Source: Gemmatimonadota bacterium
GTDB taxonomy: Bacteria > Gemmatimonadota > Gemmatimonadetes > Gemmatimonadales > GWC2-71-9
Reading direction: 5' to 3'
NCBI GenBank assembly: GCA_025350665.1
Contig: JANXXJ010000020.1
Span: forward strand, 1-32,170
Length of the DNA stretch: 32,170 nucleotides
Shown: in pieces, positions 9,301-26,441 of the stretch
Numbering within the stretch: the first letter of the stretch is position 1
Layout of the letters: each line of letters opens with the position of its first letter
The notes under the pieces: model-generated
The model's input: only the letters and a program-made list of their open reading frames with translations
Databases searched by the model: none
Told to the model about the DNA's origin: nothing
Program-made: the position numbers and the translations under genes

Positions 9301-10000
9301 CGAAAAAATGGCGGCGGACGTCCAGGCCACGCGGGCCGCCGAGGAGCGGGCGGCGCGGGTGTTGGCATGGGGCGAGATGGCGAACCAGATCGCCCACGAG
9401 ATCAAGAACCCGCTGACACCGATGCGACTCGGCGTCCAGCATCTGCTTCGGGTCTACCGCGATGGCCGACCGATTGGTGCGACGCTGGAGGAAACGTCCA
9501 AGCGGATCCTGGGGGAGATCGATCGCCTCGACACGATCGCGCGGGCATTCAGCCGGTTCGCGGCGCCGGCCGAGGGGCGGCCCGCGCCCGAGCCGACGCC
9601 GCTGGCCGAGGTTTGCCGGGAGGTCGTCGCCCTCTACGGAATCGCCCCGGGTGCGGCGCCGGTACGGCTGGAGGTGCTTCGCGATCCGGTGGTGCTGGCG
9701 CAGCGGGACGAGGTCAAAGAGGCCCTGATCAATCTGCTCGAGAATGCCCGGAACGCGGAGGCGAAGGGCATTACGGTGCGGGTCGACGGTCCGCGGCTCT
9801 CGGTGCAGGACGACGGCGTCGGCATTCCGGCGGACCGGCTGCCCCGGATCTTCGAGCCGAGGTTCTCGACCACGACGAGCGGGTCCGGGCTTGGGCTCGC
9901 GATCGTGAAGCGTCTGGTCGAGGGCTGGGGTGCGGGGATCGAGGTGGTCAGCGAACCGAAAATCGGAACGACCGTGACGATCGGGTTCCGCGAGCCTTGA
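6347..10000 (+). CDS. Very large multi-TM sensor histidine kinase, NtrY-like C-terminus (start uncertain; GTG 6347 or later)
   Basis: C-terminus: HisKA MANQIAHEIKNPLTPMRLGVQHLLR, N-box ALINLLENARNAEA, G-boxes DDGVGIP and GSGLGLAIVKRLVEGWG. N-terminal ~900 aa contain many hydrophobic segments. ORF-track extension to 5645 is antisense to the creatininase gene. Confidence 0.9.
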   Translation: MRHWLVRHGWLLLLVAGESLLAEWIRLPRAAIAVGAVLCWGLGALPLVRRGGAGTLLAGILLAKALLLGWSHVRIDRIERDWPGVREQLVTDAADQWLRDLRSSRALVERVATSAVGLDRQGREIVFDRLGRQVAREGLEVGVAVLDADGTPYAWAGRHRLAPDAAGDSIDFRASPYYAVLEARRHLGQGRTAIATLLLAADSTVPDQARSLARRFERRTGVAVDVLPRGVAPDSSDVFDYLEPSADGSSRLLFSVRLEPPTQSAAHERAYRAAVLRLVVLGVAALVLTLGLAPAGGLRFVIAAVPVWVSVRAPLGDALSLPALFSPRTFNHPLLGPVSETAGPLMLAAAFLVMVAAAALRRRRGAGRWGIPFALVLLFAAPYLVSQLGRGIQVPPGGAPAGLWFTWQATVFLVAASIVLVAAALVPNSSNRIWPAAAGATGAVGVAVVGLVVWNARSGWPDWYPFLWAAAIGLVIWPGRRAARLAGIGVAVGAAAALMVWGAEVEGRITAARADLSSLGIRADPIAIPLLEAFAERVGAGAPPRSASELFAVWRSSPLSRQAFPAALGLWSAEGDSRAQLRLDEVDLPDSLVARAVRELRPDLARAILPFQRNPAVHYLALIRVDASTVLSVGLGPRTSLVRQARLGRLLDPEPSIAPLYLLTLAPTGSLDQPDPDVPLWSREGWTARGRRTVAMGDGARDVNGVVDLGLPQSLLVRGSLLVVLDLLLLFTLAGLASWLATARVERPLWWPEWRAFRTRITMALGGFFLVPAAAFALINIVELANEGRSRRDLMIAQTLRDASPGATLPVGSGFELDRALETLSERVDANLVLFKDGRLIGSNGGGVFEDFGVVDPLVDPAVFHQVELEGEPTAMTDGPSSSLPARLGVRSVRLPTGDGAMLGSPQAVSDPGIGAQQRDLAYGLALAVVMGLVAAVVAARVSARALSRPAADLRDAALAFGRGEPLPSQAGAAPTEFEPVFQALEKMAADVQATRAAEERAARVLAWGEMANQIAHEIKNPLTPMRLGVQHLLRVYRDGRPIGATLEETSKRILGEIDRLDTIARAFSRFAAPAEGRPAPEPTPLAEVCREVVALYGIAPGAAPVRLEVLRDPVVLAQRDEVKEALINLLENARNAEAKGITVRVDGPRLSVQDDGVGIPADRLPRIFEPRFSTTTSGSGLGLAIVKRLVEGWGAGIEVVSEPKIGTTVTIGFREP

Positions 10001-10003
10001 ACG

Positions 10004-11767
10004 TCAGGCGGCGGGGACCCGCGGAAGCCAGCGGGCCAGTACGACCGCCAGGTCTTCTTTCTGGACCGGTTTGCTGATGTAGTCGTTCATGCCGACCGCG
10101 AAGCAGCGATCGCGGTCGGTGGCGAGCGCGGCCGCGGTCATCGCCACGATCGGAATGGCTGCGAAGGCTGCTCCGCTGGCCCGGATGGTCCGCGTCGCAT
10201 CATATCCGTCCATCTCCGGCATCTGACAGTCCATCAGCACCAGGTCGAATCGCTCGGCCGCGAGCCGCTCAAGAGCCTCGCGACCGTGTTCGGCCAGGAT
10301 CACCTCGCATCCGAGTCCTTCCAGCATCCACCGCGCGATGCGCTGATTGGCGGGGTAGTCCTCAGCCAGCAGGACCCGGCCGTGGAGGCGGATCGAACCG
10401 GCCGGAGCCGGAATGACGGGGGACTCCGCCGTCGCGGCGGTGCGGAAGGGGATCAGCACGGTGAAAGTGCTTCCGGCGCCGGGGGCGCTGGTGGCGGTGA
10501 TCGAGCCGCCCATGAGTTCGGTGAGCTGGCGACAAATCGTGAGGCCCAGCCCGGTGCCACCATATTTTCGGGTGGTCGAGGTGTCGGCCTGGGTGAACTT
10601 CTCGAAGATGCTGGCCACCTTCTCGGGCGGGATGCCGATGCCGGAGTCGCGGATCGTGAAGATGATTGGCTGAATGTCGGGTGGCCCGCTTTCGCCAGTC
10701 ACGTGCACGATCACGAAGCCCTGGGGGGTGAATTTGATCGCGTTGTCGATCAGGTTGGTGAGAACCTGGCGGAGGCGGCTCGGGTCGCCCACGACCTGAC
10801 TCGGAATCCCGTCGCCGAACCCGGTGCGGAGCTTGATGCCCTTGGCCTCCGCCTTGGCCGCGAGCAGGGCCGTCACGGCGTTGACCGTCTCCCGGGGATC
10901 GAACGGAATGGCCTCGACCCGGAGTTTACCGGCCTCGAGTTTCGAGAAGTCGAGGATGTCATTGATGATCTTCAGGAGGTCGCGACCCGAACTGCCGATG
11001 GTTTCGGCCAGGCCCCGTTGCTCAGGGCCGAGGTCGGAGTCCATCAACATGGCGACGGTGCCGAGGACTGCATTCATCGGGGTCCGGATCTCGTGGCTCA
11101 TGTTGGCCAGGAACTCCGATTTGGCCTGGGCGGCCAGGAAGGCCGCGTCCCGGGCTTGCCGGAGCTCCATGGTCCGCTGCTCGATCGCCGCCTCGAGTCC
11201 CTTGTTGATGCTCTTCAACTCGGCCCGGAGTTCCTCGGACCGGAGGTTGGTGGCGCAGCTGGTCATCACGATGGAGATCAGCTTCTGGCACCCGTCCGGG
11301 ATGAACGGCGACCGCTCGGCGAGGGTGCCCAGGAACATGCCGAGCGGGCCGTTCCGGGTCGCCAGGGCGTGGAGCATCGCGCCGCCGGCGTGCGTGGCAC
11401 CGGGGACAACGACCGGGTGAGTGTTCTGCAGCGCCCAGGCGAAGACGCCATCGCGGATCTGGGCTTCGACTTCCAGTTTGAACTCATCCTGACGCTCGAC
11501 CGGATGGCACCACGCCATCGGGAAATCGGCCGCCGCGGGGTCGAGGAGGAAGAAGGCTCCGCCGGTGATCGGGGAGATCCGGAAGAGGGCCGCTCCGGCC
11601 TGGGCGAGGAGGTCGGTGGCGGTGGCGACTTCCTGGGCTCCGGGCTGGGCAATGCCAACGGACGCGACGTGGTCCAGTGCGTCGAGCAGCCAGCGATTCA
11701 TCGACCGAGCCGCCTGCGCGGCCTGATCGAGGTTCGCGCGTTCGAGGTCCCCGGCGGCCGCGGTCAC
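10004..11767 (-). CDS. Hybrid sensor histidine kinase with C-terminal receiver domain
   Basis: GAF-like N-terminus, coiled coil, His[20 protein letters not shown], HATPase [21 protein letters not shown], receiver [18 protein letters not shown]...[26 protein letters not shown] start. Confidence 0.95.
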
Positions 11768-12622
11768 TCAGTGCACCGGGCCGAGGATGGCGGCGACGGC
11801 GTGGACGAACTGGGTCTCGACCTGCTTGATGAGACCGGGGAGAATCGAGGGCGAGAGGTCGAGGAGGTCCCATGCGGCGGGCTCGAACGCCGGGACCTGG
11901 TGTTCGCCGCTCGAGCCGAGCTCGAGGGCGTTGGCGATCACGTCGGCGACGTGCACGACGGCGGTTTCGGCCGGAAATCTCGTGGCCAGGCGGGGAGCGT
12001 GATGCCAGGCGGCGCCGTCGACCAACAGGCCCGGGAGCCGCCAGCGCTCGAGGAGGGCCGATCCGACGGAGCCGTGATGGAAGCCGAGCAGCTTCTGCTC
12101 GACCTGGAACAGCAGGTCGCCGGTGCGGCTCGATTCGAGCAGGGCCGATGCGGCTTCGAGTGGCGCCCGCATGAAGATGATGGGCCGGCCGATGTCGTGC
12201 AGGAGGCCGGCGACGAAGAACCGTTCGACGTTTGCTTCGCGGCGGTGGGCGGCCAGTTGCCGGGCGGTCAGCCCGCACGCGATGCTGTGGCGCCAGAACG
12301 AGTCCATGTCGACGAGGTGGGATGGCACGTTGGAAAACAGGCGCATGAACGAGGTGCCGATCGCGAGGTCCCGGAGCTGGGTCATGCCGACGATGCTGAT
12401 CGCCTGGGTGACGGTATCGATTCGCGACGGAAACCCGTAGATCGGACTGTTCACCAGGCGGAGCAGCCGGGCGGTCAGTCCGGGATCTTCCGAAATCACC
12501 TTGCCGACATCGGCGGCGGAGCTCAGGGGATGGTCGATCACCTGCACCAGGCGCTGGTACATGGTCTGGATGGTGCCGACCTCGATGGCGCCGCGGATGA
12601 GGTCCTCGGGACGACGCGGCAT
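11768..12622 (-). CDS. HDOD domain protein
   Basis: LVQVIDHPLSSAADVGKVISEDPGLTARLLRLVNSPIYGFPSRIDTVTQAISIVGMTQLRDLAIG and FFVAGLLHDIGRPIIF; stop directly abuts the hybrid kinase start. Confidence 0.93.
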   Translation of the reverse strand: MPRRPEDLIRGAIEVGTIQTMYQRLVQVIDHPLSSAADVGKVISEDPGLTARLLRLVNSPIYGFPSRIDTVTQAISIVGMTQLRDLAIGTSFMRLFSNVPSHLVDMDSFWRHSIACGLTARQLAAHRREANVERFFVAGLLHDIGRPIIFMRAPLEAASALLESSRTGDLLFQVEQKLLGFHHGSVGSALLERWRLPGLLVDGAAWHHAPRLATRFPAETAVVHVADVIANALELGSSGEHQVPAFEPAAWDLLDLSPSILPGLIKQVETQFVHAVAAILGPVH

Positions 12623-12624
12623 TC

Positions 12625-12951
12625 TCAGACCGGCTTCTTGGCGAGCTGTTTCTGGACGCAATGCCGGAACAGCGCTTCGATGACTGGATGGCCCCGGGCG
12701 ACGTGGCGGAAGCGCGGCTCGACAGCCTCTTCGGCCTTGGCGATGAGGACCGGGTCGATGATCGGCTCCTCCGATACCTGCGCCTCGGCCGGACCGGCGA
12801 TCTCGAGCTCGACGATGCCCCACATCTGGCAATACCGGATGTGTCGTTCGGTCAGGACCGTGCCCCTGGGAAGCAGCAGGCGGCCGCCCCCGTCTACCAG
12901 GTCGGTACCCAGTTCCATTTCCGGGCGAAGATTGTCGGTGGCTACCTGCAT
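12625..12951 (-). CDS. Small conserved protein resembling the N-terminal region found on some HD-type proteins
   Basis: MQVATDNLRPEMELGTDLVDGGGRLLLPRGTVLTERHIRYCQMWGIVELEI; two nt from the HDOD gene start; ATG at 12951 preferred over the ORF-track start. Confidence 0.75.
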   Translation of the reverse strand: MQVATDNLRPEMELGTDLVDGGGRLLLPRGTVLTERHIRYCQMWGIVELEIAGPAEAQVSEEPIIDPVLIAKAEEAVEPRFRHVARGHPVIEALFRHCVQKQLAKKPV

Positions 12952-13037
12952 AGTGTTGCGCGCTCCTTGCGACATTGGGTATCGGTAGGGGCGGGGCCGA
13001 CTTGAGTGCGGGGCCTGGGTGCCGATGCTAGTACCAG

Positions 13038-13367
13038 ATGGACGACCACTACGACCGGGCCTACTATCGCCTCGTGTATCCGATGGCGTTGCGCCCCCGG
13101 CTCCGGACCGGCCACCAGACCTTCGAGGTGGTGGACCTCTCCGAGCAGGGGGCCCGGTTCATTCATCCCGGCCCGGACTGGCCCAAGGTGGGGGATGAGA
13201 TTGCAGGGATGCTCGACCTCCCGACCGGTGAGGCTCTCGAGGTGGAGGGTTGCGTCGTGCGGGTGGCCGCCCCGAGTGTGGCCCTGATCCTGTCCAAAGG
13301 TGTGCCGTTCGGGATCATGATCGACCAGCAGCGATTCATCAATCAGCGGCACTTCACGACGATCTGA
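13038..13367 (+). CDS. PilZ domain protein
   Basis: RAYYR (RxxxR) followed by VDLSEQGARF (DxSxxG), the c-di-GMP-binding signature of PilZ. Confidence 0.85.
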   Translation: MDDHYDRAYYRLVYPMALRPRLRTGHQTFEVVDLSEQGARFIHPGPDWPKVGDEIAGMLDLPTGEALEVEGCVVRVAAPSVALILSKGVPFGIMIDQQRFINQRHFTTI

Positions 13368-13568
13368 TCCGCCGGTGTCACCCAATCGAACATCGAGTAA
13401 TCGCGGTGCAATACCTTGCCTTCGTGGACCCGCCGACGGGGTCGAAGCCTTGCGCAAGGTCCCGGGCGCGCGGATCATATGACGGCGGCACCGACCCCGG
13501 CCAACCGGCCCGGCTTGTGCCCTTAAGGGTGGTGACCTTCCAACCGTCCCTGGCCGGAGTCTCCATCC

Positions 13569-14033
13569 GTGAACGTAGATCCGATTCCCCAGAACCTCGT
13601 CGCCGTTCATGATCTCCTCACGGAAACCATGACCGTAACCAACGAGCAGAGCGCCCGATTCGTGTGGGGCGTGGCGATCTTTCCGCGGACCGGCCGGTTC
13701 GACGCCCCGGTGTTCGGGGTCGTCACCTGTGGCGGAGAATCCACAACGCTGACCTACCGCCTGCTCCAATCCCTGATGGACCTGCCCGTCTACGTCAGTG
13801 GCCGGGTTCCGGCCACGATTCGGGACGGCATGGCGTTCGGACCGCGCCGATCCGCCCCCCCGCCGGCGCTGATGGATCAGCCGGTTTTACACGTCATGCT
13901 GACCTGCTGCATCGGTTCGACCACCGACGATCTCGACCGGACGATGCCGCTCGAATCGACGGTGTTCGCGGGCGACCTCAAGTCGCCGATCCTTCTGCTG
14001 ACGGAGGGCCGGCCGGACGGCTGGCCCCGATAA
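13569..14033 (+). CDS. Hypothetical protein
   Basis: GTG start with GGAG upstream, high-GC3 coding pattern, followed by a perfect hairpin; no family recognised. Confidence 0.6.
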   Translation: MNVDPIPQNLVAVHDLLTETMTVTNEQSARFVWGVAIFPRTGRFDAPVFGVVTCGGESTTLTYRLLQSLMDLPVYVSGRVPATIRDGMAFGPRRSAPPPALMDQPVLHVMLTCCIGSTTDDLDRTMPLESTVFAGDLKSPILLLTEGRPDGWPR

Positions 14034-14055
14034 ACCGGAGGGGAAGTCAGGGAAC

Positions 14056-14088
14056 GGGGCGGTCGCTGCTGTCGGGAGCGACCGCCCC
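14056..14088 (+). terminator. Perfect 12-bp stem hairpin, candidate terminator
   Basis: GGGGCGGTCGCT-gctgtcggg-AGCGACCGCCCC between the hypothetical gene and the amidohydrolase; no clear T-run. Confidence 0.55.
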
Positions 14089-14122
14089 GCGCCATATTCA
14101 GGCGTCTCTTTCCCGACCTCAT

Positions 14123-15880
14123 ATGATGCGTTCACGTTCAGCCGGCGCCTGGCGCCGATGCCTGGTCGCCGGTTCGTTGCTCGCTGCTTGTCGGGCGGCG
14201 GCGCCGGCGGCCGATCTCATCCTCGTCAACGGCAAGGTCATTACGGTCGACTCGACAGACCGGGTGGCCGAGGCCGTGGCGATCCGGGGCGATCGGATTG
14301 TGGCGGTGGGGACCACGGCTGAGATCGAGAAGCTCGCCGGCGAGAAGACCCGCCGGGTGGACCTGGCGGGGCGGGCGGTCACGCCGGGGCTGATCGATGC
14401 CCACGCCCATTTCGCCTGGGGCAGTACCAACCGGATTCTGTTAATCGATCTGAGCTATCCCGACGTGAAGAACGTGGCCGAGATCCAGGCAAAGGTGGCG
14501 GCGCGGGTGGCGACGACGGCCTCGGGTGGTTGGATCGAGGGGCGGGGCTGGGACGAGGGCAAGCTGGCCGAACGACGACTGCTGACGGCCGCCGATCTGG
14601 ACCGCGTGGCGCCTAACCACCCGGTGTGGCTCACGCAGACGACCGGACACTACGGCGTGGCCAACTCGGCCGCGCTCAAGCTGGCCGGTATCGATCGGGC
14701 GACCAAGGATCCGCCGGCGGGAAGCATCGATCGCGGCCCGGACGGGCAGCCGACGGGCGTGCTCAAGGAATCGGCCCAGGAGCTGGTCGGGCGATTGATT
14801 CCGGCCCCCGATGACAGCGTGGTGGTCCGGGGGATGAAGGAGCTCGCTCAGGCGTTCAACGCCGAAGGGATGACCGGGCTCAAGGACCCGGGGATCGCCG
14901 GTCAGGCCTGGGACAACTACGGGAAGGCGCTGGCGGATAGCGGGCTCACCGTCCGCGTGTTCGTGCTGTGGACCGGCGGCATCAGCAACGCGACGGCCGA
15001 CACGGTCATCCGGCAACGGGCGGCGATGACCCGACCGTATGAGTCGACCGGGAACGATCGGTTGATCGCCGGGGGCGTCAAGCTCTACATCGACGGAAGC
15101 GGCGGCGCCCGCACGGCCTGGCTCTACGACGACTGGAACAAGAACTCGACCGCTGTGGACCGGGGCAACCGAGGCTACCCGACGACGAATCCGGACACGA
15201 TCCGGGCGTTGATCAAGCGATACCATGAAGCGGGGTTTCACGTCAGCGTGCACTCGATCGGCGACCGGGCGATCGACTGGACGGTCGAGAGCTTCGCGCA
15301 GGCGCTGGCGGAGCATCCCGCCCAAGGGCGCCGCCACGGGATCATCCACGCCAACATCCCGACCGACAAAGCCATCGACCTGATGGCTGAATTGCAGAAG
15401 AAGTACGACGCCGCTTATCCCGAGCCGTCGCCCGCATTCACCTGGTGGCTCGGCGACACCTACGCCGGGAACTTCGGTCCGGCGCGGTCCCACCGATTGA
15501 ACCCGTTCCGGACCTTCCAGCGGAAGGGCATCCGCTGGGCGGGCGCTTCCGACTACAACGTGACCCCGTTCCCGGCCCGGTACGGCATCTGGTCGGCAGT
15601 GGCGCGGGAGCCGCTCCTGGGCGTCTGGGGTCCGGACCCGTTCGGGCGGGAGGAGACGATCGACGTGCACGCGGCGCTCCGGGCGTTCACGATCGACGCG
15701 GCACACCAGATGTTCCTCGAGAAGAAGACCGGATCGGTCGAAGTCGGGAAGTATGCCGACCTGGCCGTTTGGGACCGCGATCCCTACACGGTCCCCACGG
15801 CCCAGCTCAAGGAGATGACGTGCCAGCTGACGGTGATGAACGGCCGCGTCGTGTTCGAGGCCCCGGTCGCCGCCCGCTAA
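14123..15880 (+). CDS. Amidohydrolase family protein (YtcJ-like), predicted lipoprotein
   Basis: Lipobox LVAGSLLAAC; ADLILVNGKVITVD; VTPGLIDAHAHF; GGARTAWLYDDW; KYADLAVWDRDPY. Confidence 0.92.
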   Translation: MMRSRSAGAWRRCLVAGSLLAACRAAAPAADLILVNGKVITVDSTDRVAEAVAIRGDRIVAVGTTAEIEKLAGEKTRRVDLAGRAVTPGLIDAHAHFAWGSTNRILLIDLSYPDVKNVAEIQAKVAARVATTASGGWIEGRGWDEGKLAERRLLTAADLDRVAPNHPVWLTQTTGHYGVANSAALKLAGIDRATKDPPAGSIDRGPDGQPTGVLKESAQELVGRLIPAPDDSVVVRGMKELAQAFNAEGMTGLKDPGIAGQAWDNYGKALADSGLTVRVFVLWTGGISNATADTVIRQRAAMTRPYESTGNDRLIAGGVKLYIDGSGGARTAWLYDDWNKNSTAVDRGNRGYPTTNPDTIRALIKRYHEAGFHVSVHSIGDRAIDWTVESFAQALAEHPAQGRRHGIIHANIPTDKAIDLMAELQKKYDAAYPEPSPAFTWWLGDTYAGNFGPARSHRLNPFRTFQRKGIRWAGASDYNVTPFPARYGIWSAVAREPLLGVWGPDPFGREETIDVHAALRAFTIDAAHQMFLEKKTGSVEVGKYADLAVWDRDPYTVPTAQLKEMTCQLTVMNGRVVFEAPVAAR

Positions 15881-17109
15881 CGTCCCGCCGCCGCCAACGA
15901 CACCAGCAGGACCCACTGGGGGCCGAGGAAGCCTCGGTCCCCGTCTTCGTACCATTCGCCTAACGCATGCGCCCCGTCGCCCCGGCCGCCGCCGTCCATG
16001 GCAATGGCCGGGACGCCGAGGCCGATCGGGACGTTAGCGTCGGTACTGCCGGCTGCACCGGGGGGCGGCGGAAATCCGAGGCGCCTGGCGGCGTCCTGGG
16101 CGGCCCGAAGGAGCCAGAGGGTGTCCGGTTGGCTTCCCGCAGGGCGGATCCCGATCGTATCGATGACGGCGGTGAGGCCCGCTGGCGAGCCGGGCCAGCG
16201 GGCCTTTTCGGCTGTGACCGCGTTTGCCACCGCCCGGCGGAAGGCCGAGTCGATACGAGTCAGTTCGGTGGCGGACTCGGAGCGGAGATCCATCTGCAGG
16301 GTGGCCGCCATGGCGATCGAGTTGACCGAGGTGCCGCCGCTGACGAGCCCGACGTTGAATGTGGTCCTGGGTGCGGCCGGAACGGAGATGTCGGCGATCG
16401 CGGCGATGGCGCGACCCATGGCATGCATGGGGTTCGGCATCCCGAAGTCGCCGTAGCTGTGGCCGCCGGGCCCGGCGAACGTGACCCGGTAGCGGTTGCT
16501 GCCGACGGCCCGGTGGACGACGCCGAGTCCCACGCCATCGACCGAGATGAAGGCGTCGATCCGGCCGGCGGCGCCGTGCTGGAAGAGGTGTCGGGTGCCG
16601 CGCAGGTTGCCGGCCCCTTCTTCACCCACGTTGCCCACGAACACGATGTCCCCGGCGCTCTTCACGCCGGCGAGCGAGACGGCCCGGGCCACGGCCAGGA
16701 CCACGGCCAGGCCGCGGCAGTCGTCGCTGATGCCCGGGCCGGCCAGGCGGCGACCCTCGTGTCGGACCCGCACATCGGTCCCTTCGGGGAAGACCGTATC
16801 GAGGTGGGCGGCCAGGACCAGTCGGCGTCCGCCGCCGGTCCCGGGGCGGGTGACGATGACGTTGCCGATCTCATCGGTGACCGGATGGTAGCCTAACGCC
16901 GCGAACCGGCGGGCGTAGTCGGCGCCCCGGGCGGCTTCCTTGAACGGCGGAGCCGCGATCTCGCAAAGGGCGATCTGCTGCTCGAGGGTCCAGGCGTTGT
17001 CGCGCTCGAGGATCATCAAGGCGCGGGTCACCGCGGGGTCGGGGGCCTGGGCCCTCGCGATCGGCGGGGCGGCGAGCACGGCGAGGGCCAGGGGCAGGGC
17101 GCGGGTCAT
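15877..17109 (-). CDS. Secreted M20 family metallopeptidase
   Basis: Signal peptide MTRALPLALAVLAAPPIARAQ; LVLAAHLDTVFPEGT; GPGISDDCRGLA; GNVGEEGAGNLRGTRHLF. Confidence 0.92.
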   Translation of the reverse strand: MTRALPLALAVLAAPPIARAQAPDPAVTRALMILERDNAWTLEQQIALCEIAAPPFKEAARGADYARRFAALGYHPVTDEIGNVIVTRPGTGGGRRLVLAAHLDTVFPEGTDVRVRHEGRRLAGPGISDDCRGLAVVLAVARAVSLAGVKSAGDIVFVGNVGEEGAGNLRGTRHLFQHGAAGRIDAFISVDGVGLGVVHRAVGSNRYRVTFAGPGGHSYGDFGMPNPMHAMGRAIAAIADISVPAAPRTTFNVGLVSGGTSVNSIAMAATLQMDLRSESATELTRIDSAFRRAVANAVTAEKARWPGSPAGLTAVIDTIGIRPAGSQPDTLWLLRAAQDAARRLGFPPPPGAAGSTDANVPIGLGVPAIAMDGGGRGDGAHALGEWYEDGDRGFLGPQWVLLVSLAAAGR

Positions 17110-17507
17110 TTCGACCCCCGGGCGGGCACCACCGCGATGCATTGGATCTCGATGCCGGTGCCGTGATGCAGGGGCAAGACCGGCACGACGGCTCGGGCCG
17201 GTCTGGCCTCTCCCATGATCCGGGAATAGACCGCGTTGACGGCGCTCCAGTCCTCCATGTTCGAGAGGAAGATCGTGATCTGGACGGCGTGGGCGAGGCC
17301 CGAGCCGGCGGCGTCGAGAATCCGGGCCGTGTTCCGGAGAGCGAGCTCGGCCTGCTCGTTGATCGGTCCGGTGAACGGGGTTCCGGTCGCGGGATCAAAG
17401 GGGAGCTGGCCCGAGACGAAGACGAATCCGTTGGCGACGACGGCCTGGGAATAGTGGCCGGCGGGGACCATCGTCCCCGGGGCGTGGATCGGCGTGATGG
17501 CGGACAT
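17106..17507 (-). CDS. RidA family (YjgF/YER057c/UK114) protein
   Basis: YSQAVVANGFVFVSGQLPFDPATG; PARAVVPVLPLHHGTGIEIQCIAVV, retaining the PAR arginine motif. Confidence 0.93.
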   Translation of the reverse strand: MSAITPIHAPGTMVPAGHYSQAVVANGFVFVSGQLPFDPATGTPFTGPINEQAELALRNTARILDAAGSGLAHAVQITIFLSNMEDWSAVNAVYSRIMGEARPARAVVPVLPLHHGTGIEIQCIAVVPARGSK

Positions 17508-17530: not shown

Positions 17531-18361
17531 CTAATTCTCAACCGCCGTCGTCGCCGCGGCAAGAGCGGCGTCGCGCAGTATCGAGACGAAGTCGACCGCC
17601 GCGGCGGCCGCGTCGTCGCCGGCCCGACGGATGGACTCGATTCGATTGATCAAGGCGGATCCGGTGATCACCCCGCGGGCGCCGAGGCGATGGGCGGTGC
17701 GAACGTGGTCGGGTCCCGAAATTCCGAAGCCCAGCACCGGTGGGGGAGCGTGGAGGGCCCGGAGATCGGCAATCGTGGCACCGAGCACGGCGGCATCGGG
17801 GTCGGCGGCGCCCGTGACGCCGGCCCGGCTCGTGACATAGGTGTAGCCGCGGGTTGCCCGGGCGATCTGTTCGAGGCGCGCGCTCGTGGCGTTCGGCGGC
17901 GCAATCATGACCGGGGCGATGCCATGCCGGCCGGCCTCGGCATGGAAGGGTTCCGCTTCGCCGAGCGGAAGGTCGGCGATCAGCACGGAATCGGCGCCGG
18001 CGGCCGCGGCCCGCTGGTAGAAGTGCGGGACGCCTCGGTGGACCACGAGATTGGCGTACACGAGGAGGCCGATCGGGAGGGCGGGGGCTCGTTGCCGGAG
18101 ACGTTCGACCAGATCCCAGCAGTCATCGGCCGTGGTGCCGGCCGCGAGGGCGCGCCAGCCCGCCGCTTGAACTACGGGACCATCGGCAACTGGATCGGAG
18201 AATGGAAACCCGAGTTCGATCGCATCGATCCCGGCGTCGGCGAGCGCGTCGAGGATGCGGGCCGAGGTATCCAGATCGGGATCGCCCAGAACGAGGAATG
18301 GGATGACGGCGACCTGGGACGCCGCCGGGCCGCCGAACAGGGTGGCGTAGCGGGTGCTCAT
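17531..18361 (-). CDS. trpA: Tryptophan synthase alpha subunit
   Basis: [48 protein letters not shown]. Confidence 0.97.
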
Positions 18362-19530
18362 CGGGCCTTCTCCTCAATCCAGCGCCCGACCGTGGCGAGA
18401 TCCTTGTCGCCGCGGCCGGACAGGTTCACGACGATCCGCCGGAATTCGCCGGCGGCCGCGAGCCGGCGGGCGACCGCGAGCGCGTGGGCACTCTCAAGCG
18501 CCGGGAGAATGCCCTCGGTGCTGGCAAGGTCCTGATACGCCTGGACGGCATCGTGATCGTCGCAGGCCAGATAGCGGGCGCGGCCCGTCTCGGCCAGATG
18601 GGCGTGTTCCGGCCCGACGCCTGGATAGTCGAGGCCGGCCGACACCGAATGCGATTCCCGGATCTGTCCATCGTCGTCCTGGAGGACCTGGGTGAAGGCT
18701 CCGTGCAGGACGCCGGGCCGGCCCCGGAGGATCGTGGCGCCATGAGCGTTCGATTCGAGGCCCTGGCCACCGGGCTCGACCCCGATGAGGACGACGGGAT
18801 CATCGAGGAACGCGGTGAAGATCCCGATGGCGTTCGAGCCGCCGCCCACCGCGGCGACGACCGCGTCGGGCTGGCCCCCGGCCTGCTCCGCGAACTGGGC
18901 CCGAGCCTCGTCGCCGATGACCCGCTGGAATTCCCGGACTATGGTGGGGAATGGATGGGGGCCGGCGACGGTCCCGAGCAGATAGTGGGTGTCAGCAAAG
19001 GACGCCGACCAGTCGCGGAGGGCTTCGTTGATCGCGTCCTTGAGGGTGGCCCCACCGGACGTCACCGCCACCACGGTCGCCCCGAAGAGCCGCATCCGGT
19101 CCACGTTCGGGCGCTGGCGGGCCATGTCGGTGGCGCCCATGTAGATCACGGTCTCGATGCCTAACGCCGCTCCGGTGAACGCGGTGGCGACCCCGTGCTG
19201 GCCCGCCCCGGTTTCGGCGATCAGCCGGCGTTTGCCGAGGCGACGGGCCAGGAGCCCCTGGCCCAGTGCCTGGTTGGTCTTGTGGGCGCCGCCGTGCAGG
19301 AGATCTTCGCGCTTGAGCCAGATCTCGGTACCGTCGCCGCCGAACCGGCGGCACCGGTAGAGCGGCGTCGGGCGGCCCGCGAAGTGGCGCAGCCACCCGG
19401 CCAGGTCAGCCTTGAACTCGGGGTCGGCGAGCGCCGCGACGAACGCCGCCTCGAGTTCTTCGAGGGCGGGGGCCAGGATCTCAGGCACGAAGTAGCCGCC
19501 GAAGCGGCCAAATCGGGTCGGGAGTTTCAT
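18358..19530 (-). CDS. trpB: Tryptophan synthase beta subunit
   Basis: [64 protein letters not shown]. Start at 19530. Confidence 0.98.
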
Positions 19531-20888
19531 GCCCGCCGCCGACCTGCCCGGGCCCGACGGGCCGCCAGGAAGCGGTGGATACGGGACCGGTCCTTCAGGC
19601 CGGGCGACGTCTCGACGCCGGAACTCACGTCGAAGAAGTCGATGCCGACCTCGGGGACGGCACCCACGTTGTCCGGATGCAGTCCGCCGCCGACGATGCA
19701 GGCCTCGGGTCGGTCGATCCCGCCAAGAAGCGCCCAGTCGAACGCCCGCCCGTCGCCGCCACGCTGGCCATCCAGCAGCCACCGATCGGCCGGGCCGACC
19801 AGGGGCGGTATCGCTCTGTCGACCGGGACTGCCCGCCACAGCGCCACGCGTTCGGGCAGCCGGCGCCGCGTCTCCTCTAGGTCGTGGTCGGATTCCCCGC
19901 CGTGGAGCTGGACCGTATCGAGCTCGAGATGTTCCGCCAACGTGGCGACTTCATCGGGCCGGTGTCCGGCGAAGACGCCCACCCACTGGAGATCGGCCGC
20001 CTGCCGGATCCGCTTTGCCCGGGCCGGGTCGAGCCGACGGGGTGATGGCGCGAACACGAGGCCGCCATGGGTGGCGCCGGCCGCCGCCGCTGCCTCGGCG
20101 TCCTCGGGCCGGGTGAGGCCGCAGACCTTGGTCAGGCCGTAGATCAGCTCGCGGGCAAACGGGTCGGGGTCGGCCCGGGACATGAGCGCACTCCCGATCA
20201 GGAACCCGTCGACCTGGCCGGCGAGCCGGCGGACGTCGGCCCTGCCGGTGATGCCGGACTCGGCGATCACGAGTGCATCGGGCGGTGCCTGGGCCGCCAG
20301 CACGGCCACGCCCGCGAGATCGACCGTGAACGTGCGGAGGTTCCGGCTGTTGACGCCGATCAATCGGGCGCCGAGGGAGGCGGCCCGCGCCATCTCCCCG
20401 GGGTCGTGCACTTCCGTCAACACGCTCATTCGGAGGGCGCGGGCCTGGTCGGCGCAGGCCCGGTAGGTCTGGTCGTCGACGGCCGCGAGGATGAGGAGGA
20501 CGGCGTCGGCGCCGGCGGCACGGAGATCGCGAACCTGCCCGGGGTCAACGATGAAATCCTTGGCCAAAATCGGCTGGGGACACTCGGAGCGAATCCGGGT
20601 GAGCAGGCCCGGCGATCCGCCGAAGAACGTCGAGTCGGTGAGCACGCTGACCGCATCGGCGCGGCGCCGGTAACAGTCGATCACCGGTCCGAGGTCCGCG
20701 GCGTCACGAATCCGGCCCGCCGATGGCGATCTCGGTTTCACCTCGAGGATGAACGCCGGCCGGGCCGTCCGGAGCGCCGCCTCGAAATCGCGATCCGAAG
20801 GCACGAGGGCCGGTTCCGCCGTTCGGTAACCGGCGGTTCGAAGCCGGACCTCCTCGCGTTTGCGAACCAGGATGGCGCTGAGCGTCAT
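19527..20888 (-). CDS. trpCF: Bifunctional indole-3-glycerol-phosphate synthase / phosphoribosylanthranilate isomerase (TrpC-TrpF fusion)
   Basis: [102 protein letters not shown]. Single frame from ATG 20888. Confidence 0.96.
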
Positions 20889-21892
20889 GCTGCCTCCTTG
20901 AGCAGGAGCTCGAGACGCTCGGCCCCGGCCCCCGCGATGATGATGCCGAAGGCGAGTTGAGCCCCGGCGGCGAGCGAGTCGGCGACGCCGGCAACCCAGA
21001 ACAAGGCTCCGGCGTTGAGCGCGACCGAGTTGGTGTGGGCCGGTGGTGCCCGGCCCTCGAGAACCTGCCGGAGCCACACGGCGCTCTCGCCCGGACCGCC
21101 CCCGGCCAGTTCGGAGACAGGGGCGCGCGGCAGCCGGGCGTCCTCCGGCGTCAGGATCAGGTCGGTGATCCGGCCGTCTCGGACGAGCGCCGCCGTGGTC
21201 GGGCCGTGCAGGGCGATCTCATCGAGCCCGCTGCCATGGACGACGAGCGCCGCGGTCACGCCAAGGCGCTGGAGGGTCTGGGCGATCGGACGAACCAGGT
21301 GGGGGGCATAGACCCCCATCACCTGCCAAGCCGGCCGAACCGGATTGACCAGCGGGCCGAGCAGATTCATGACCGTGCGGGTGCGGAGGGTCCGGCGGAC
21401 GGTGGCGGCCTTCCGGATGCCGGGGTGATAGGCCGGGGCGAAGAGGAAGCAGACCCCGGCCCGGTCCAGGGCCCGGCGGGTCGTGTCGGGAGAGGCCTCG
21501 AGATCGAGCCCCAGGGCCTCGAGTACGTCAGCCGATCCGGTGCGCGACGAGGTGGCCCGGTTGCCGTGCTTGGCGACCGGTACTCCACCCGCGGCGGCCA
21601 CGAACGCGGCCGCCGTCGACACATTGACGGTGCCGAGTCCGTCACCGCCGGTGCCGCAGGTGTCGGCGACGGAGTAGGCCGGCTGAGGGAACGGCCGGGC
21701 CTGGGCCAGGATCGCGAGGGCGGCACCGGTGATTTCGTCGGCCGTTTCACCGCGGGTCTTCATCGCGGCGAGGAGGGCGGCAATTTCGATGTCGGACATC
21801 GCGCCGTCCAGAATGTCGGTAAAGGTGCGGTAGCTCTCCCGCTCGGTCAGGCTCCGGTGCGACAGGGTGTCGAGGAATTCAGTGAGCGGCAT
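20885..21892 (-). CDS. trpD: Anthranilate phosphoribosyltransferase
   Basis: DTCGTGGDGLGTVNVSTAAAFVAAAGGVPVAKHGNRATSSRTGSADVLEALG. Confidence 0.98.
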   Translation of the reverse strand: MPLTEFLDTLSHRSLTERESYRTFTDILDGAMSDIEIAALLAAMKTRGETADEITGAALAILAQARPFPQPAYSVADTCGTGGDGLGTVNVSTAAAFVAAAGGVPVAKHGNRATSSRTGSADVLEALGLDLEASPDTTRRALDRAGVCFLFAPAYHPGIRKAATVRRTLRTRTVMNLLGPLVNPVRPAWQVMGVYAPHLVRPIAQTLQRLGVTAALVVHGSGLDEIALHGPTTAALVRDGRITDLILTPEDARLPRAPVSELAGGGPGESAVWLRQVLEGRAPPAHTNSVALNAGALFWVAGVADSLAAGAQLAFGIIIAGAGAERLELLLKEAA

Positions 21893-22475
21893 GGGAGGCC
21901 CAGAGCATCACATGGTCGATCAGGCGGCCGCCGTGCGGCGTCAGGACGGATTCGGGGTGGAACTGGACGCCGATGGCCGGCTGGTCCCGATGACGGACCG
22001 CCATGACGACGCCCTCCGACTCGGCGATCGCTTCGAGCGGCGCCGGAAGTTCGGCGGCGGCCAGCGAGTGATAGCGACCCACGGGCATGGGGTCGGGCAG
22101 GCCGGCGAAGATGCCCAGGCCGCCGTGGCGGAGCAGCGTGGCCCGGCCGTGGAGCGGGACCGGGCTGCACCGGACCACGCCGCCTAACGCGACGACCAGG
22201 GCCTGATGGCCGAGACACACGCCGAAAATCGGGACTCGGCCGAGCCCGCCGGATATCGCGGCGATGCTGGAACCCGCTGAGGCGGGATCCCCAGGGCCGG
22301 GGGAAATCACCAGGAGCCCGGCGCCCGGCCGGGTGGCATGAGCGAGGATGTCGGCGGCCGGCCGGTCGTTCCGGAAGACCGTGACGTCGGCACCGCGCCG
22401 GGCGAATTCATCGACCAGGTTGAAGGTGAAGGAGTCGATGTTGTCGAGCAGGGTGACGCGGAGCGGCTCAGACAT
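21879..22475 (-). CDS. trpG: Anthranilate synthase component II (glutamine amidotransferase)
   Basis: LLDNIDSFTFNLV; ISPGPGDP; FGVCLGHQALVVALGG; GVQFHPESV. Confidence 0.97.
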   Translation of the reverse strand: MSEPLRVTLLDNIDSFTFNLVDEFARRGADVTVFRNDRPAADILAHATRPGAGLLVISPGPGDPASAGSSIAAISGGLGRVPIFGVCLGHQALVVALGGVVRCSPVPLHGRATLLRHGGLGIFAGLPDPMPVGRYHSLAAAELPAPLEAIAESEGVVMAVRHRDQPAIGVQFHPESVLTPHGGRLIDHVMLWASHAAH

Positions 22476-24048
22476 GGATCAGCGCCTGTTCGGAGGAACG
22501 AATCGCTTCGAGTACCGCCCGGACCTTGGCCCGGGTCTCGGCCGCCTCGGCGTCGGGGTCTGAGTCGAGCACGACACCGGCCCCGGCGCGCACCGTAGCC
22601 ACGCCGTTCCGGACGACGGCCGACCGAATCACGATCGCCGTCTCCAGCGTGCCGTCGTGCCGGAGGTACCCGACCGCCCCGCCGTACCAGCCTCGGCGGC
22701 TCGGCTCATACTCCCGGAGCAGTTCCGCAGCCCGGACCTTGGGCGCGCCGACGAGCGTGCCCATGGGCAGGGTCGCCGCGAGGGCTTCCAGCGCGTCGAT
22801 CCCCGGGGCCAAGGTGCCGCAGACTTCGGACACCAGGTGCATCACGTGGCGATAGCGCTCGACGTCGAGCAGACGGGTCACGGTGCGGGTTCCCGGGGCT
22901 GCCACCCGGGCGACGTCGTTTCGTGCCAGATCGACCAGCATCAGGTGCTCGGCGGATTCCTTGGGATCGTTCCGGAGAGCCACTTCGTGCCGGCGGTCGA
23001 GGTCACTGTCGATCTCGCCTGCGGGGTTCCGGCCCCGGGCCGCCGTTCCCGCGATCGGTACGACCGAGACGCGGCGACTCGGGCCCTCAACTCGGAGACA
23101 GGTTTCGGGCGAGGCGCCGAGGAGCGTGCGCTCTGCCCCCGCGAGGTAGAACAGGTACGGACTGGGGTTCGCCCGGCGGAGCGCGGCGTAGGCGTCGAGC
23201 GGCGAACCGCACGGTGTCCGGAACGTCCGGGACGGTACGATCTGATAGACGTCACCGCTTCGGACGTGGGCCTTGAGACGGCGGACCGTCTCGGCGTACG
23301 CGGCATCGGACTGGTCCGCGGGATCGGGGTCGTCGAGTCGGGGCAGCGCCAGGTCCGGCTGCGGCTCGGTGGAGCCCGTCGCCACGATCGCTGCTTCGAC
23401 GGATGCGAGCAGACGGTGGCCGTCGTGGAACCGGGCGTCGAAGCCGGGGCCGCCCCACGCCGTGGTCACGATCGTCGTGGTTCGGCCGGCGTGATCGATC
23501 ACGACCAGGATGTCGGGCAACCACCATTCGAGCAGCGGCTGGTCAAGGGGGTCGGGCCTCCCGGGGGGAAGGCGCTCGAAGTACTCGATGGCGTCGTAGG
23601 CGATCACGCCGGCCAGCACATGACACCACGGGTTCGGCTCCGCCACGACGCCGGGCTCGAACGCCAGAGCCCGGAGCAGGTCGAGTCCGGATGGCTGGCG
23701 GAACCGGTGCGCCTCGTGGTCGATCGCCCCCCGGCGAATCGGCACGATCGCCCGCCGCGCCACCACCGTGATGGCTCTGGTGGCGGCAAGCCAGGCCAGA
23801 ATGGCATCGCCGTTAGGCGACAGGGCGTCGAGGGTCACGGTTGTCGGTCCGGCCCGGAGCCTGAGGGCCGCGCGGACGCCGAGCAGGCTCCGTTCGCCGC
23901 CGGCTCCCCCGCGATCCGCGGACTCGAGGAGAAACGTGTCGGCCCGGCCCGCGGTCAGGTCCCGATAGAGGGTGAGTGGGTCGGCCGCACCCGCGAGCCG
24001 GCGGACCAGGGGCGTTACGGTCCCGAGAGGGGGCGGCAGCGCGGTCAC
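22468..24048 (-). CDS. trpE: Anthranilate synthase component I
   Basis: VRSGDVYQIVPSRTF; SPETCLRVEG; PIAGTAARGRNP; MLVDLARNDVARV; GTLVGAPKVRAAELL; LLES-X10-S motif. Confidence 0.97.
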   Translation of the reverse strand: MTALPPPLGTVTPLVRRLAGAADPLTLYRDLTAGRADTFLLESADRGGAGGERSLLGVRAALRLRAGPTTVTLDALSPNGDAILAWLAATRAITVVARRAIVPIRRGAIDHEAHRFRQPSGLDLLRALAFEPGVVAEPNPWCHVLAGVIAYDAIEYFERLPPGRPDPLDQPLLEWWLPDILVVIDHAGRTTTIVTTAWGGPGFDARFHDGHRLLASVEAAIVATGSTEPQPDLALPRLDDPDPADQSDAAYAETVRRLKAHVRSGDVYQIVPSRTFRTPCGSPLDAYAALRRANPSPYLFYLAGAERTLLGASPETCLRVEGPSRRVSVVPIAGTAARGRNPAGEIDSDLDRRHEVALRNDPKESAEHLMLVDLARNDVARVAAPGTRTVTRLLDVERYRHVMHLVSEVCGTLAPGIDALEALAATLPMGTLVGAPKVRAAELLREYEPSRRGWYGGAVGYLRHDGTLETAIVIRSAVVRNGVATVRAGAGVVLDSDPDAEAAETRAKVRAVLEAIRSSEQALIHV

Positions 24049-25058
24049 AGGGCCCGCCCCGCCGCGCGGGCGAACGGTTCGAGATCGCGCATTAGCGCCG
24101 CGAACTCGAGATGGTCGAGCGTCTGCTGGCCGTCCGACCAGGCGAGTCTGGGGTCTTGATGGACCTCGATCAACAGGCCGTCGGCGCCGCAGGCCACGGC
24201 GGCCTTCGCCATGGGCGCCACGTAGTCACGGACGCCGGTTCCATGGGACGGATCGACCAGCACCGGCAGGTGACTGCGGGCCTTGATGGCGGGCACGGCG
24301 GTGAGGTCCAGGACGTTGCGGGTCGCGGAATCGAAACCCTGGATTCCCCGTTCGCAGAGAATCACGTTGGGGTTGCCCTCCGCGAGGATGTACTCCGCCG
24401 CCAGCAGGAGATCCTCGATTCTGGCGGCCATGCCTCGTTTCAGCACGACCGGTTTCCGGCTCCGGCCGATCGCCTGCAGGAGCCGGAAGTTCTGCATGTT
24501 GCGGGCGCCGACCTGGAATCCGTCGGCATAGCGATCCACCAGTTCGACATCGGCGGGATCGAGGACTTCGGTCAGGGTCGGCAGGCCGACCTCGTCCGAT
24601 ACCGCCTTGAGGATCTCGAGGCCCTCTCGTCCCAGCCCCTGAAAGGCGTACGGACTGGTCCTGGGCTTGAAGGCCCCGCCGCGGAGGATCCTCCCGCCGG
24701 CTGCCGCCACCGCCCGGGCCGTGGTTGTGAGCTGGCCGGCGCTTTCGACCGAGCAGGGTCCCCCGATCACGACGATACGGTCACCGCCGATCGCGACTCC
24801 GCCCAACGACACGATGGTATCGGCCGGATGGAGCTCGCGGGCCACCAGCTTGTAGGGCGCCAGGATCGGCTTGACGCTTTCGACCAGCGGGTGGCTCTCG
24901 AGGTGAAGGCGCTCGAGAATGCGCTCGTCGCCGAGAGCGCCGAGCACGACGCGTTCGGCGCCAGGCATGTGGAGCGGTTTGAGGCCGACGGCCGCGATGT
25001 CGCGGACGAGTTCTTCCGCGTGCGCCGCGGTGGCGTGCGGTTTGAGGACGATGATCAT
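24045..25058 (-). CDS. aroF: 3-deoxy-7-phosphoheptulonate (DAHP) synthase with N-terminal ferredoxin-like domain
   Basis: MIIVLKPHATAAHAEELVRDIAAVGLKPL; VVIGGPCSVES; LRGGAFKPRTSPYAFQGLG; PVVLKRGMAA; CERGIQGFD; VDPSHGTG. Start at 25058 with AAAAGG upstream; the ORF-track start 25118 lies inside the attenuator terminator. Confidence 0.95.
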   Translation of the reverse strand: MIIVLKPHATAAHAEELVRDIAAVGLKPLHMPGAERVVLGALGDERILERLHLESHPLVESVKPILAPYKLVARELHPADTIVSLGGVAIGGDRIVVIGGPCSVESAGQLTTTARAVAAAGGRILRGGAFKPRTSPYAFQGLGREGLEILKAVSDEVGLPTLTEVLDPADVELVDRYADGFQVGARNMQNFRLLQAIGRSRKPVVLKRGMAARIEDLLLAAEYILAEGNPNVILCERGIQGFDSATRNVLDLTAVPAIKARSHLPVLVDPSHGTGVRDYVAPMAKAAVACGADGLLIEVHQDPRLAWSDGQQTLDHLEFAALMRDLEPFARAAGRAL

Positions 25059-25107: not shown

Positions 25108-25135
25108 AAAAAGCCCACCGCTTGCGCGGTGGGCT
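25108..25135 (-). terminator. Intrinsic terminator of the trp attenuator (3:4 hairpin)
   Basis: Minus strand AGCCCACCGC-GCAA-GCGGTGGGCT followed by a run of five T (25112..25108): perfect 10-bp stem, GNRA-type tetraloop. Confidence 0.93.
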
Positions 25136-25155
25136 CCGGGGTCAGGATTCGATGA

Positions 25156-25239
25156 CTATCGACTCAGACGCACGCTTTGCCCCACCGCGAAATCGCGCCA
25201 GGGCCACCACCACTGCGTTGAAACGTTGCGTCCGATCAT
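25156..25239 (-). CDS. trpL: trp operon leader peptide MIGRNVSTQWWWPWRDFAVGQSVRLSR
   Basis: Short ORF with four Trp codons in five (TGG TGG TGG CCC TGG), stop TAG at 25158..25156, located between a good promoter and the terminator upstream of aroF-trp. Confidence 0.9.
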   Translation of the reverse strand: MIGRNVSTQWWWPWRDFAVGQSVRLSR

Positions 25240-25246
25240 GGACATC

Positions 25247-25275
25247 AGGATAGGCGTGCGTGGCTGGACCGTCAA
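25247..25275 (-). promoter_or_regulatory. Predicted housekeeping promoter of the trp leader and operon
   Basis: Minus strand TTGACG (25275..25270), 17-nt spacer, TATCCT (25252..25247). Confidence 0.75.
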
Positions 25276-26441
25276 GGCCGGGCGGCCGCGAACGCCGGTT
25301 CGAGAACCGAGAAGAGCCGGTCCACTTCCCACCACTCGTTGTACACATGCGGGGTGATTCGCAGGGTCCGGCCACCGCGGATGCTGATATGCACGCCCTG
25401 CCGGGTGAGCAACCCGGCCAGTCCGGCGGGCAGCGCTCCGGCGGCCTTGAGGCCGAGGTAGTGGCGGGCGCGAAGTTGGGTGGGGACCGCGGCAAGACCG
25501 AGCGGATCGGCCCGGGTGGCGATGGCGTCGGTGAACGCGCCCGCGGTGGCCGCGATGCGGTCGACCCCCCAGTCCAGAATCTGCTCGAGCGCCGCAGTCA
25601 CGCCGGGAAGCAGCGCGAAGTTGGCCGGTTCGCCGACGTCGAACCGCCGGGCGCCGCGTTGAAAACCGTCCGGGTAGCCGAGGTTGCTGAAATCCTGGGC
25701 ACCGGCGCGGCCAAACCAGTGATGTTCGAGCGGCCGGCCGTTCTGGTGCCGCGGGGCGACGTAGAGGAACCCGGTGGAATAGGGGGACAGCAGCCACTTG
25801 TAGGCGGCCACCACCAGGAAGTCGGGGTCGACCTCGGCAAGCGGGAACGGGCGCGCGCCTAACGATTGGGTCAGGTCGAGCGCCAGGGCGGCCCCAACCT
25901 GGCGGAGCCGGGCGCCGATCCGGACCAGATCGATGGTGGCCCCGTCGATCCAGTGTACCGCCGGCAGGGCGGCCACCGCGGTCCGGTCGTCGATCGCGGC
26001 CAGGATGGCGGCTGTCCAGTCGTGATCGGCGGGGCGGGGTACGGTGACGAGTTCGGCGCCGCCGGCCCGGGCCCGCTCCCGCCAGGTCAGAATGGTCGAT
26101 GGGAACTCCTCGGCCAACACGAGGATCGTCTGCCCAGGCCGGACCGTCAGATTGGCCGACGCCACCGCCATGCCATACGAGGCCGCCGGTACCAGCGCGA
26201 TGTCCTCGGCCGTTGCCGGGGCGCCGAGGAGCGTGGCGAAGGCGGCGCGGGCCTGGTCGGCCAAGCTGAAGAAATCGGCCGGGAACACGGCCCAGGGATG
26301 GCGCTTGCGGTCGACTCCCCCATGGGTCGCTTCTGCGACGGCGTTCGACAGCGGGCCCATGTAGGCGCAGTTCAGGTAGGCGACGTGACCGGGCAGGTCA
26401 AACAGGTGGCGCTGCGAGGGGAGGATGGGCATGCCCACCAT
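25272..26441 (-). CDS. Aminotransferase class V-fold PLP-dependent enzyme
   Basis: HVAYLNCAYMGPLSNAV; ALALDLTQSLGARPFPL; DFLVVAAYKWLLSPYSTGFLYV (PLP-lysine region). Confidence 0.9.
   Translation of the reverse strand: MVGMPILPSQRHLFDLPGHVAYLNCAYMGPLSNAVAEATHGGVDRKRHPWAVFPADFFSLADQARAAFATLLGAPATAEDIALVPAASYGMAVASANLTVRPGQTILVLAEEFPSTILTWRERARAGGAELVTVPRPADHDWTAAILAAIDDRTAVAALPAVHWIDGATIDLVRIGARLRQVGAALALDLTQSLGARPFPLAEVDPDFLVVAAYKWLLSPYSTGFLYVAPRHQNGRPLEHHWFGRAGAQDFSNLGYPDGFQRGARRFDVGEPANFALLPGVTAALEQILDWGVDRIAATAGAFTDAIATRADPLGLAAVPTQLRARHYLGLKAAGALPAGLAGLLTRQGVHISIRGGRTLRITPHVYNEWWEVDRLFSVLEPAFAAARP

Follow-up and report, generated by a model that had tools for sequence, protein, structure and literature searches.

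A candidate leaderless, trpL-type attenuator ahead of the aroF-trp operon of a Gemmatimonadota bacterium, and similar leaders at histidine and phenylalanine genes of its relatives

The minus strand of positions 25108–25275 in a 32,170-nucleotide stretch of Gemmatimonadota DNA (contig JANXXJ010000020.1; the whole stretch is referred to here as the window) very probably carries a trpL-type, ribosome-mediated transcription attenuator with a leaderless leader ORF, as judged from sequence comparison and predicted folds. In total, we found 16 Trp attenuators in 14 genomes, 13 of them from one order and one from another order of the same class, and relatives appear to rely on the same kind of leader for histidine and phenylalanine.

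The leader region and the operon behind it

Re-reading of the minus strand agreed with the first-pass annotation that a short ORF with four Trp codons in five, at codons 10, 11, 12 and 14, precedes the operon (Table 1), and the Trp motif TGGTGGTGGNNNTGG is present a single time in the window, where shuffled sequences predict 0.01 occurrences. The coordinates and base pairs claimed for region 2, region 3 and the 1:2 hairpin (25204–25179) were likewise borne out, with region 2 (CGCGGTGGG, 25189–25181) complementing region 3 (CCCACCGCG, 25133–25125) and the terminator stem AGCCCACCGC-GCAA-GCGGTGGGCT occupying 25135–25112, all on the minus strand. This terminator had been described as ending in five T residues; the stem stands and the run at 25112–25108 does comprise five, but the first of these is paired, which leaves four unpaired. 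The fold of the 136-nt leader was 3.7 standard deviations more stable than those of dinucleotide shuffles (z −3.7; 0 of 200 equally stable), and the 2:3 duplex of the window was stronger than 99.2% of shuffles.

The upper coordinate given previously, 25275, is the first base of a promoter that the first-pass annotation had left unmentioned and which reads TTGACG-17-TATCCT (25275–25247, minus strand). TTGAC is conserved 35–38 nt ahead of the leader ATG in the nine aroF-linked leaders of the order, and the best sigma-70 match within 180 nt ends 5–10 nt before the ATG in all 13 of the first leaders of the order, compared with 2 of 900 shuffles. In the genome from another order (L175) we read TTGCCA-17-TATACT, ending 10 nt ahead of the ATG. 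As a promoter placed 5–10 nt before the leader ATG implies that translation of the leader should begin at the 5′-terminal base of the RNA, the window leader is most probably leaderless, a prediction made from sequence. Neither of the internal leaders that come second in the tandem pairs described below has such a promoter, and both have GAGG 10 nt before their ATG; the predicted leaderless start of the promoter-linked first leaders and the GAGG-led second leaders thus form an internal contrast. An in-frame ATG at 25245 was also considered as the start of the window leader, but it lies upstream of the expected +1 and was rejected.

Pfam searches confirmed the gene content of the aroF-trpEGD(CF)BA operon that had been placed behind the attenuator. 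In addition, a RidA-like gene (window 17106–17507) and an M20 peptidase gene (15877–17142) follow trpA, as they also do in two relatives of the same genus (L147 and L153). On the other side of the leader, a class V aminotransferase gene (window 25272–26441) has its TGA stop codon inside the leader −35 box, and this gene adjoins the operon in several relatives too.

Table 1. Features of the window locus and of related leaders
Feature	Position or locus	Strand	Basis or remark
Leader promoter −35 box TTGACG	25270..25275	−	Promoter-like sequence; TTGAC conserved in relatives
−10 box TATCCT	25247..25252	−	7 nt ahead of leader ATG; +1 expected at or beside A of ATG
Leader peptide ORF MIGRNVSTQWWWPWRDFAVGQSVRLSR, 27 codons plus stop	25156..25239	−	Sequence; conserved in relatives
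Codons W10 W11 W12 P13 W14	25198..25212	−	Sequence
Region 1, 5′ arm of 1:2 hairpin, overlapping codons 12–16	25194..25204	−	
Region 2, 3′ arm of 1:2 hairpin and 5′ arm of antiterminator, within leader ORF	25179..25189	−	
Region 3, 3′ arm of antiterminator and 5′ arm of terminator	25125..25133	−	
Intrinsic terminator (3:4 hairpin and T tract)	25108..25135	−	
aroF, DAHP synthase with N-terminal ferredoxin-like domain	24045..25058	−	Pfam PF00793, PF18152
trpE	22468..24048	−	PF00425, PF04715
trpG	21879..22475	−	PF00117; operon position
trpD	20885..21892	−	PF00591, PF02885
trpC-trpF fusion	19527..20888	−	PF00218, PF00697
trpB	18358..19530	−	PF00291; operon position
trpA	17531..18361	−	PF00290
Tandem Trp attenuators upstream of trpD, L142	G097:C46	−	
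Tandem Trp attenuators upstream of trpD, L143	G181:C68	−	
His leaders, e.g. MLISRRHHHAHHHHGPR	L176–L181, L183, L186–L190, L193–L195		Leaderless (predicted); terminators
Phe/Tyr/Trp leaders before pheA	L196, L199, L209–L213, L215, L226, L230, L232, L236, L238		Leaderless (predicted)

Conservation of the Trp leaders and of their pairing

A comparison of AroF across 201 genomes of the order showed that the eight closest proteins (that of the window and seven orthologues with 69–79% identity) are all encoded behind a Trp-rich leader, a terminator and a matching region 2 (8/8), the Trp motifs being WWWPWR, WWPWR, WWRWR, WYWSWR, WWSWP or WWW. Searching with a covariance model built from these eight leaders yielded a ninth aroF-linked leader (L039) and two leaders ahead of trpD in another family (L041 and L042), which have the motif CWRPWRD; of the matches below 30 bits, those inspected resembled isolated terminators, a hairpin associated with a tRNA or coding DNA, and these were set aside. 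L175 has aroF (67%) with the leader MNALNPPRTVCQPSMSDGWWFWRFAHRSGGLSCT. An intrinsic terminator was found between the leader ORF and the first gene for all 16 Trp leaders. A TrpD search displayed a sharp split between 13 genomes with the attenuator-linked type (at least 52% identity) and the others listed (at most 47%), and a Trp leader was absent upstream of trpD in seven regions of this second type; the majority of the genomes of the order have a different trp gene set. Loss of the Trp codons or of the compensatory helix changes in orthologous leaders had been set in advance as grounds for abandoning the attenuator, and what we found is that the orthologous leaders retain both the Trp codons and 2:3 complementarity despite their changed sequence.

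The antiterminator was assessed in 15 leaders. In each, we sought the strongest pairing of the terminator 5′ arm with the sequence following the first Trp codon and compared it with those of 500 dinucleotide shuffles. The window and the 14 further leaders gave p values of 0.000–0.058, with a Fisher combined value of about 5×10−18 that overstates the case because the leaders are related and were treated as independent in the shuffle tests. More telling is that region 2 appears, from the sequences, to track each of the differing forms of region 3 (CCCACCGC, CCCACGGT, CCCACTGCG, GACCCGCC and GGCCCGCCTG), every one of which is matched by its own region 2. In L006, for example, the terminator arm has gone from CCACCGC to CCACGGT and region 2 is a shifted CCGTGG, and several relatives have a bulged A within region 2 (CGCGGT-A-GGGC). 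A column count in our first alignment showed 86% of the 2:3 cells to be paired, against 29–56% when the alignment was slid; it contained zero double changes because this alignment cannot place a bulge or a shift. Region 2 begins 20–25 nt past the first Trp codon in 14 of the 15 leaders.

Folding with a masked ribosome, proposed mechanism and alternatives

Folding of the leader with and without masking had been proposed as a check on the attenuator, and its outcome was favourable. RNA emerged through region 3 was folded with the bases covered by a ribosome with W10 in its A site blocked, and under this stalled ribosome the predicted fold of the window leader was the antiterminator, with 8.9 expected 2:3 pairs and zero 1:2 pairs. 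The reverse was predicted for free RNA or with the ribosome at the stop codon, where 1:2 forms and 2:3 does not. The earlier caveat that region 2 lies inside the ORF, such that 1:2 would have to reform behind the ribosome, applies to the window and L039, in which the stop codon is 20–22 nt past region 2 and 1:2 does the work, but not to most relatives: in L003–L009, L041 and L042 the stop codon is 3–11 nt past region 2, a ribosome that has reached the stop hides some of region 2 and the 2:3 pairing drops to zero in the predicted folds. In L005, L007 and L142a, 2:3 already prevails in unmasked RNA on folding, and therefore the state without a ribosome may not favour termination in these three leaders.

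Conservation among orthologues, the following of region 3 by region 2 and the masked folding all support the E. coli trpL logic suggested at the outset. In the mechanism that we propose, in which we infer the start site, ribosome stalling and tryptophan dependence, RNA polymerase would start at or beside the A of the leader ATG and initiation on the bare 5′ end would proceed with no Shine-Dalgarno site. If Trp-tRNA runs short, the ribosome would stall at codons 10–12, partly covering region 1 and leaving region 2, which starts approx. 10 nt beyond its front edge, free to pair with the emerging region 3, so that no terminator would form and transcription would read through into aroF-trpEGD(CF)BA. 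When Trp-tRNA is plentiful, the ribosome would reach the stop codon, region 2 would be held by 1:2 (window and L039) or lie partly under the ribosome (most relatives), and with region 2 occupied in this way region 3 would pair with region 4 and transcription would end.

We regard it as unlikely that, on top of attenuation, the leader RNA or the encoded peptide has a further role in trans, like rnTrpL and peTrpL of Sinorhizobium meliloti; the predicted RNA likewise has AUG at its 5′ end and its release would be expected in Trp-rich cells, and PWR at codons 13–15 is retained in several leaders, although these codons fall in region 1 and their retention is accounted for by the 1:2 hairpin. It is highly improbable that the hairpin merely terminates the aminotransferase gene upstream and that the Trp-rich ORF arose by chance. 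A terminator would indeed be expected after a gene that, in the window, stops inside the −35 box, but 14 genomes retain the Trp codons, their spacing to region 2, the 2:3 pairing and the promoter, and these features persist where the upstream gene differs or ends elsewhere (L006 and L007) and where the leader stands before trpD. Sensing of the leader RNA by a T-box, a riboswitch or a TRAP-like protein and not by a translating ribosome, which could in principle use any antiterminator/terminator pair, is hardly credible when no Rfam family, T-box included, reaches threshold in the window and the near-fixed distance from the Trp codons to region 2 is explained by a ribosome-based sensor.

Related leaders and known attenuators

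Similar leaders to this putative ribosome-mediated attenuator were found in other arrangements and at other operons. In genus g27, trpD is preceded in two genomes by a pair of complete Trp attenuators in tandem (L142 and L143), MTMRNPAEAIRSWWRDERHGG... followed by MAVPPLFRAPLRRWWWPTPPPGG..., each unit with its own terminator and region 2. A His pattern, consisting of the same promoter spacing and then four His codons, matched 41 of the 287 genomes of the order searched, the reversed control giving isolated matches only. Inspection of the His loci identified 15 with an in-frame His leader and a terminator, and hisG was downstream in 6/6 tested with Pfam. The sequence TANNNT ends 4–10 nt before the ATG in 24 of 32 promoter-linked His-leader sequences and in at most five of their shuffles. 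The terminators of the His leaders are clear, but antitermination is less well supported because their 2:3 duplexes as a set were no better than shuffles (Fisher 0.09).

Phe/Tyr/Trp leaders of the same build are located ahead of pheA, two of them identified by pattern search and eleven more by a search of pheA upstream regions for short ORFs linked to a promoter. All have a terminator, pheA was confirmed by Pfam in 4/4 and the 2:3 duplexes as a set were stronger than shuffles (7×10−7). Codons for Phe, Tyr and Trp all occur in some of these leaders (e.g. WFFYF). The gene behind the leader is, in L196 and L209, a fusion of prephenate dehydratase, an ACT domain and DAHP synthase, and L226, L230 and L236 have GTG 6–7 nt past the −10 box, apparently as leaderless GTG starts. 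Neither a His leader nor a pheA of the type searched was found in the window's own genome, a 366-contig draft. A Leu-codon pattern gave nothing convincing as a leucine leader, and one of its matches proved to be a Phe leader in another frame.

Taken together, it is reasonably likely that Gemmatimonadota have a general, leaderless form of leader-peptide attenuation for Trp, His and Phe/Tyr/Trp operons, in which the ORF runs through region 2 and, in most members, the trailing side of the ribosome at the stop codon masks region 2, and that one genus has two serial Trp attenuators that share a promoter, of which the upstream one is leaderless and the downstream one has a Shine-Dalgarno sequence.

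In E. coli trpL, the first Trp codon is approx. 20 nt from region 2. The window-type leaders have a similar spacing of about 20 nt and share with the trpL of trpEDCBA its tandem Trp codons, regions 1–4 and mutually exclusive 2:3 and 3:4 pairings; they differ in being predicted to have no Shine-Dalgarno sequence or 5′ untranslated region, in an ORF that spans region 2 and ends past it, and in having aroF first in the operon. The window scores 18.4 bits with the Rfam Trp_leader family (RF00513; gathering threshold 41) and is not a member, although its leader would work like Trp_leader.

The trpL RNA of S. meliloti is leaderless, starting at the AUG of the leader ORF, and is under attenuation control, with a 14-residue peptide, control of trpE(G) only and trans roles reported for rnTrpL and peTrpL (PMC7298713); it shares the leaderless start and attenuation with the window leader and differs in phylum, in its 14-residue peptide and in its trpE(G)-only control. 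In Streptomyces lividans, trpL1, ilvL and leuL are transcribed leaderless and leaderless promoters have TAnnnT −10 boxes; the Trp leaders precede the single genes trpE and trpS, and the list is without His or Phe leaders (PMC8079986). The ilvB leader of Corynebacterium diphtheriae is also leaderless (PMC5784534), and trp attenuators of Actinobacteria have been described (PMC1262725). Leaderless amino-acid leader peptides are thus shared with these two species, which are Actinobacteria and not Gemmatimonadota.

A GTDB scan gave no close relatives of the window and yielded named Gemmatimonadetes, Ferrimonas and other comparators. The gammaproteobacterium Ferrimonas balearica (L066; operon and leader 8001–15550) has the same aroF-trp order (AroF 60%) with a Trp leader, MTHRSAQHIAWWWRSQT, and a terminator, but this leader is unrelated in sequence, stops before the region 2-like stretch in the style of E. 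coli and starts far downstream of its own TTGACA box. The housekeeping AroF proteins of the order share 66–80% identity with the Gemmatimonadetes bacterium AG28 locus, and no other named locus in the comparison exceeds about 62%; on this basis the genome would belong to Gemmatimonadota. As AroF relatives are scattered across distant phyla, sequence comparison suggests transfer of the aroF-trp operon between lineages.

Two short ORFs are also found in series in the leader of the Salmonella mgtCBR operon, which encodes MgtC and a Mg2+ transporter (PMC3641672); g27 shares the serial ORFs and differs in that both of its units would read tryptophan and each is a complete attenuator. A 2010 survey gave Proteobacteria and Actinobacteria as the only phyla with demonstrated leader-peptide systems and extended the list to Firmicutes (PMC2965389), and our literature search, with most subscription papers lying outside it, found no report of attenuators in Gemmatimonadota. 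Given that leaderless trp leaders are already known from Sinorhizobium and Streptomyces, the window attenuator would be a known kind in a new phylum and not a new mechanism; what appear to be new are its occurrence in this phylum, the coverage of three pathways and the two Trp attenuators in series. These results would extend attenuation to Gemmatimonadota for three pathways at once and tie it to leaderless initiation, and the tandem pair may offer a natural comparison between a leaderless and a Shine-Dalgarno-led leader within one transcript.
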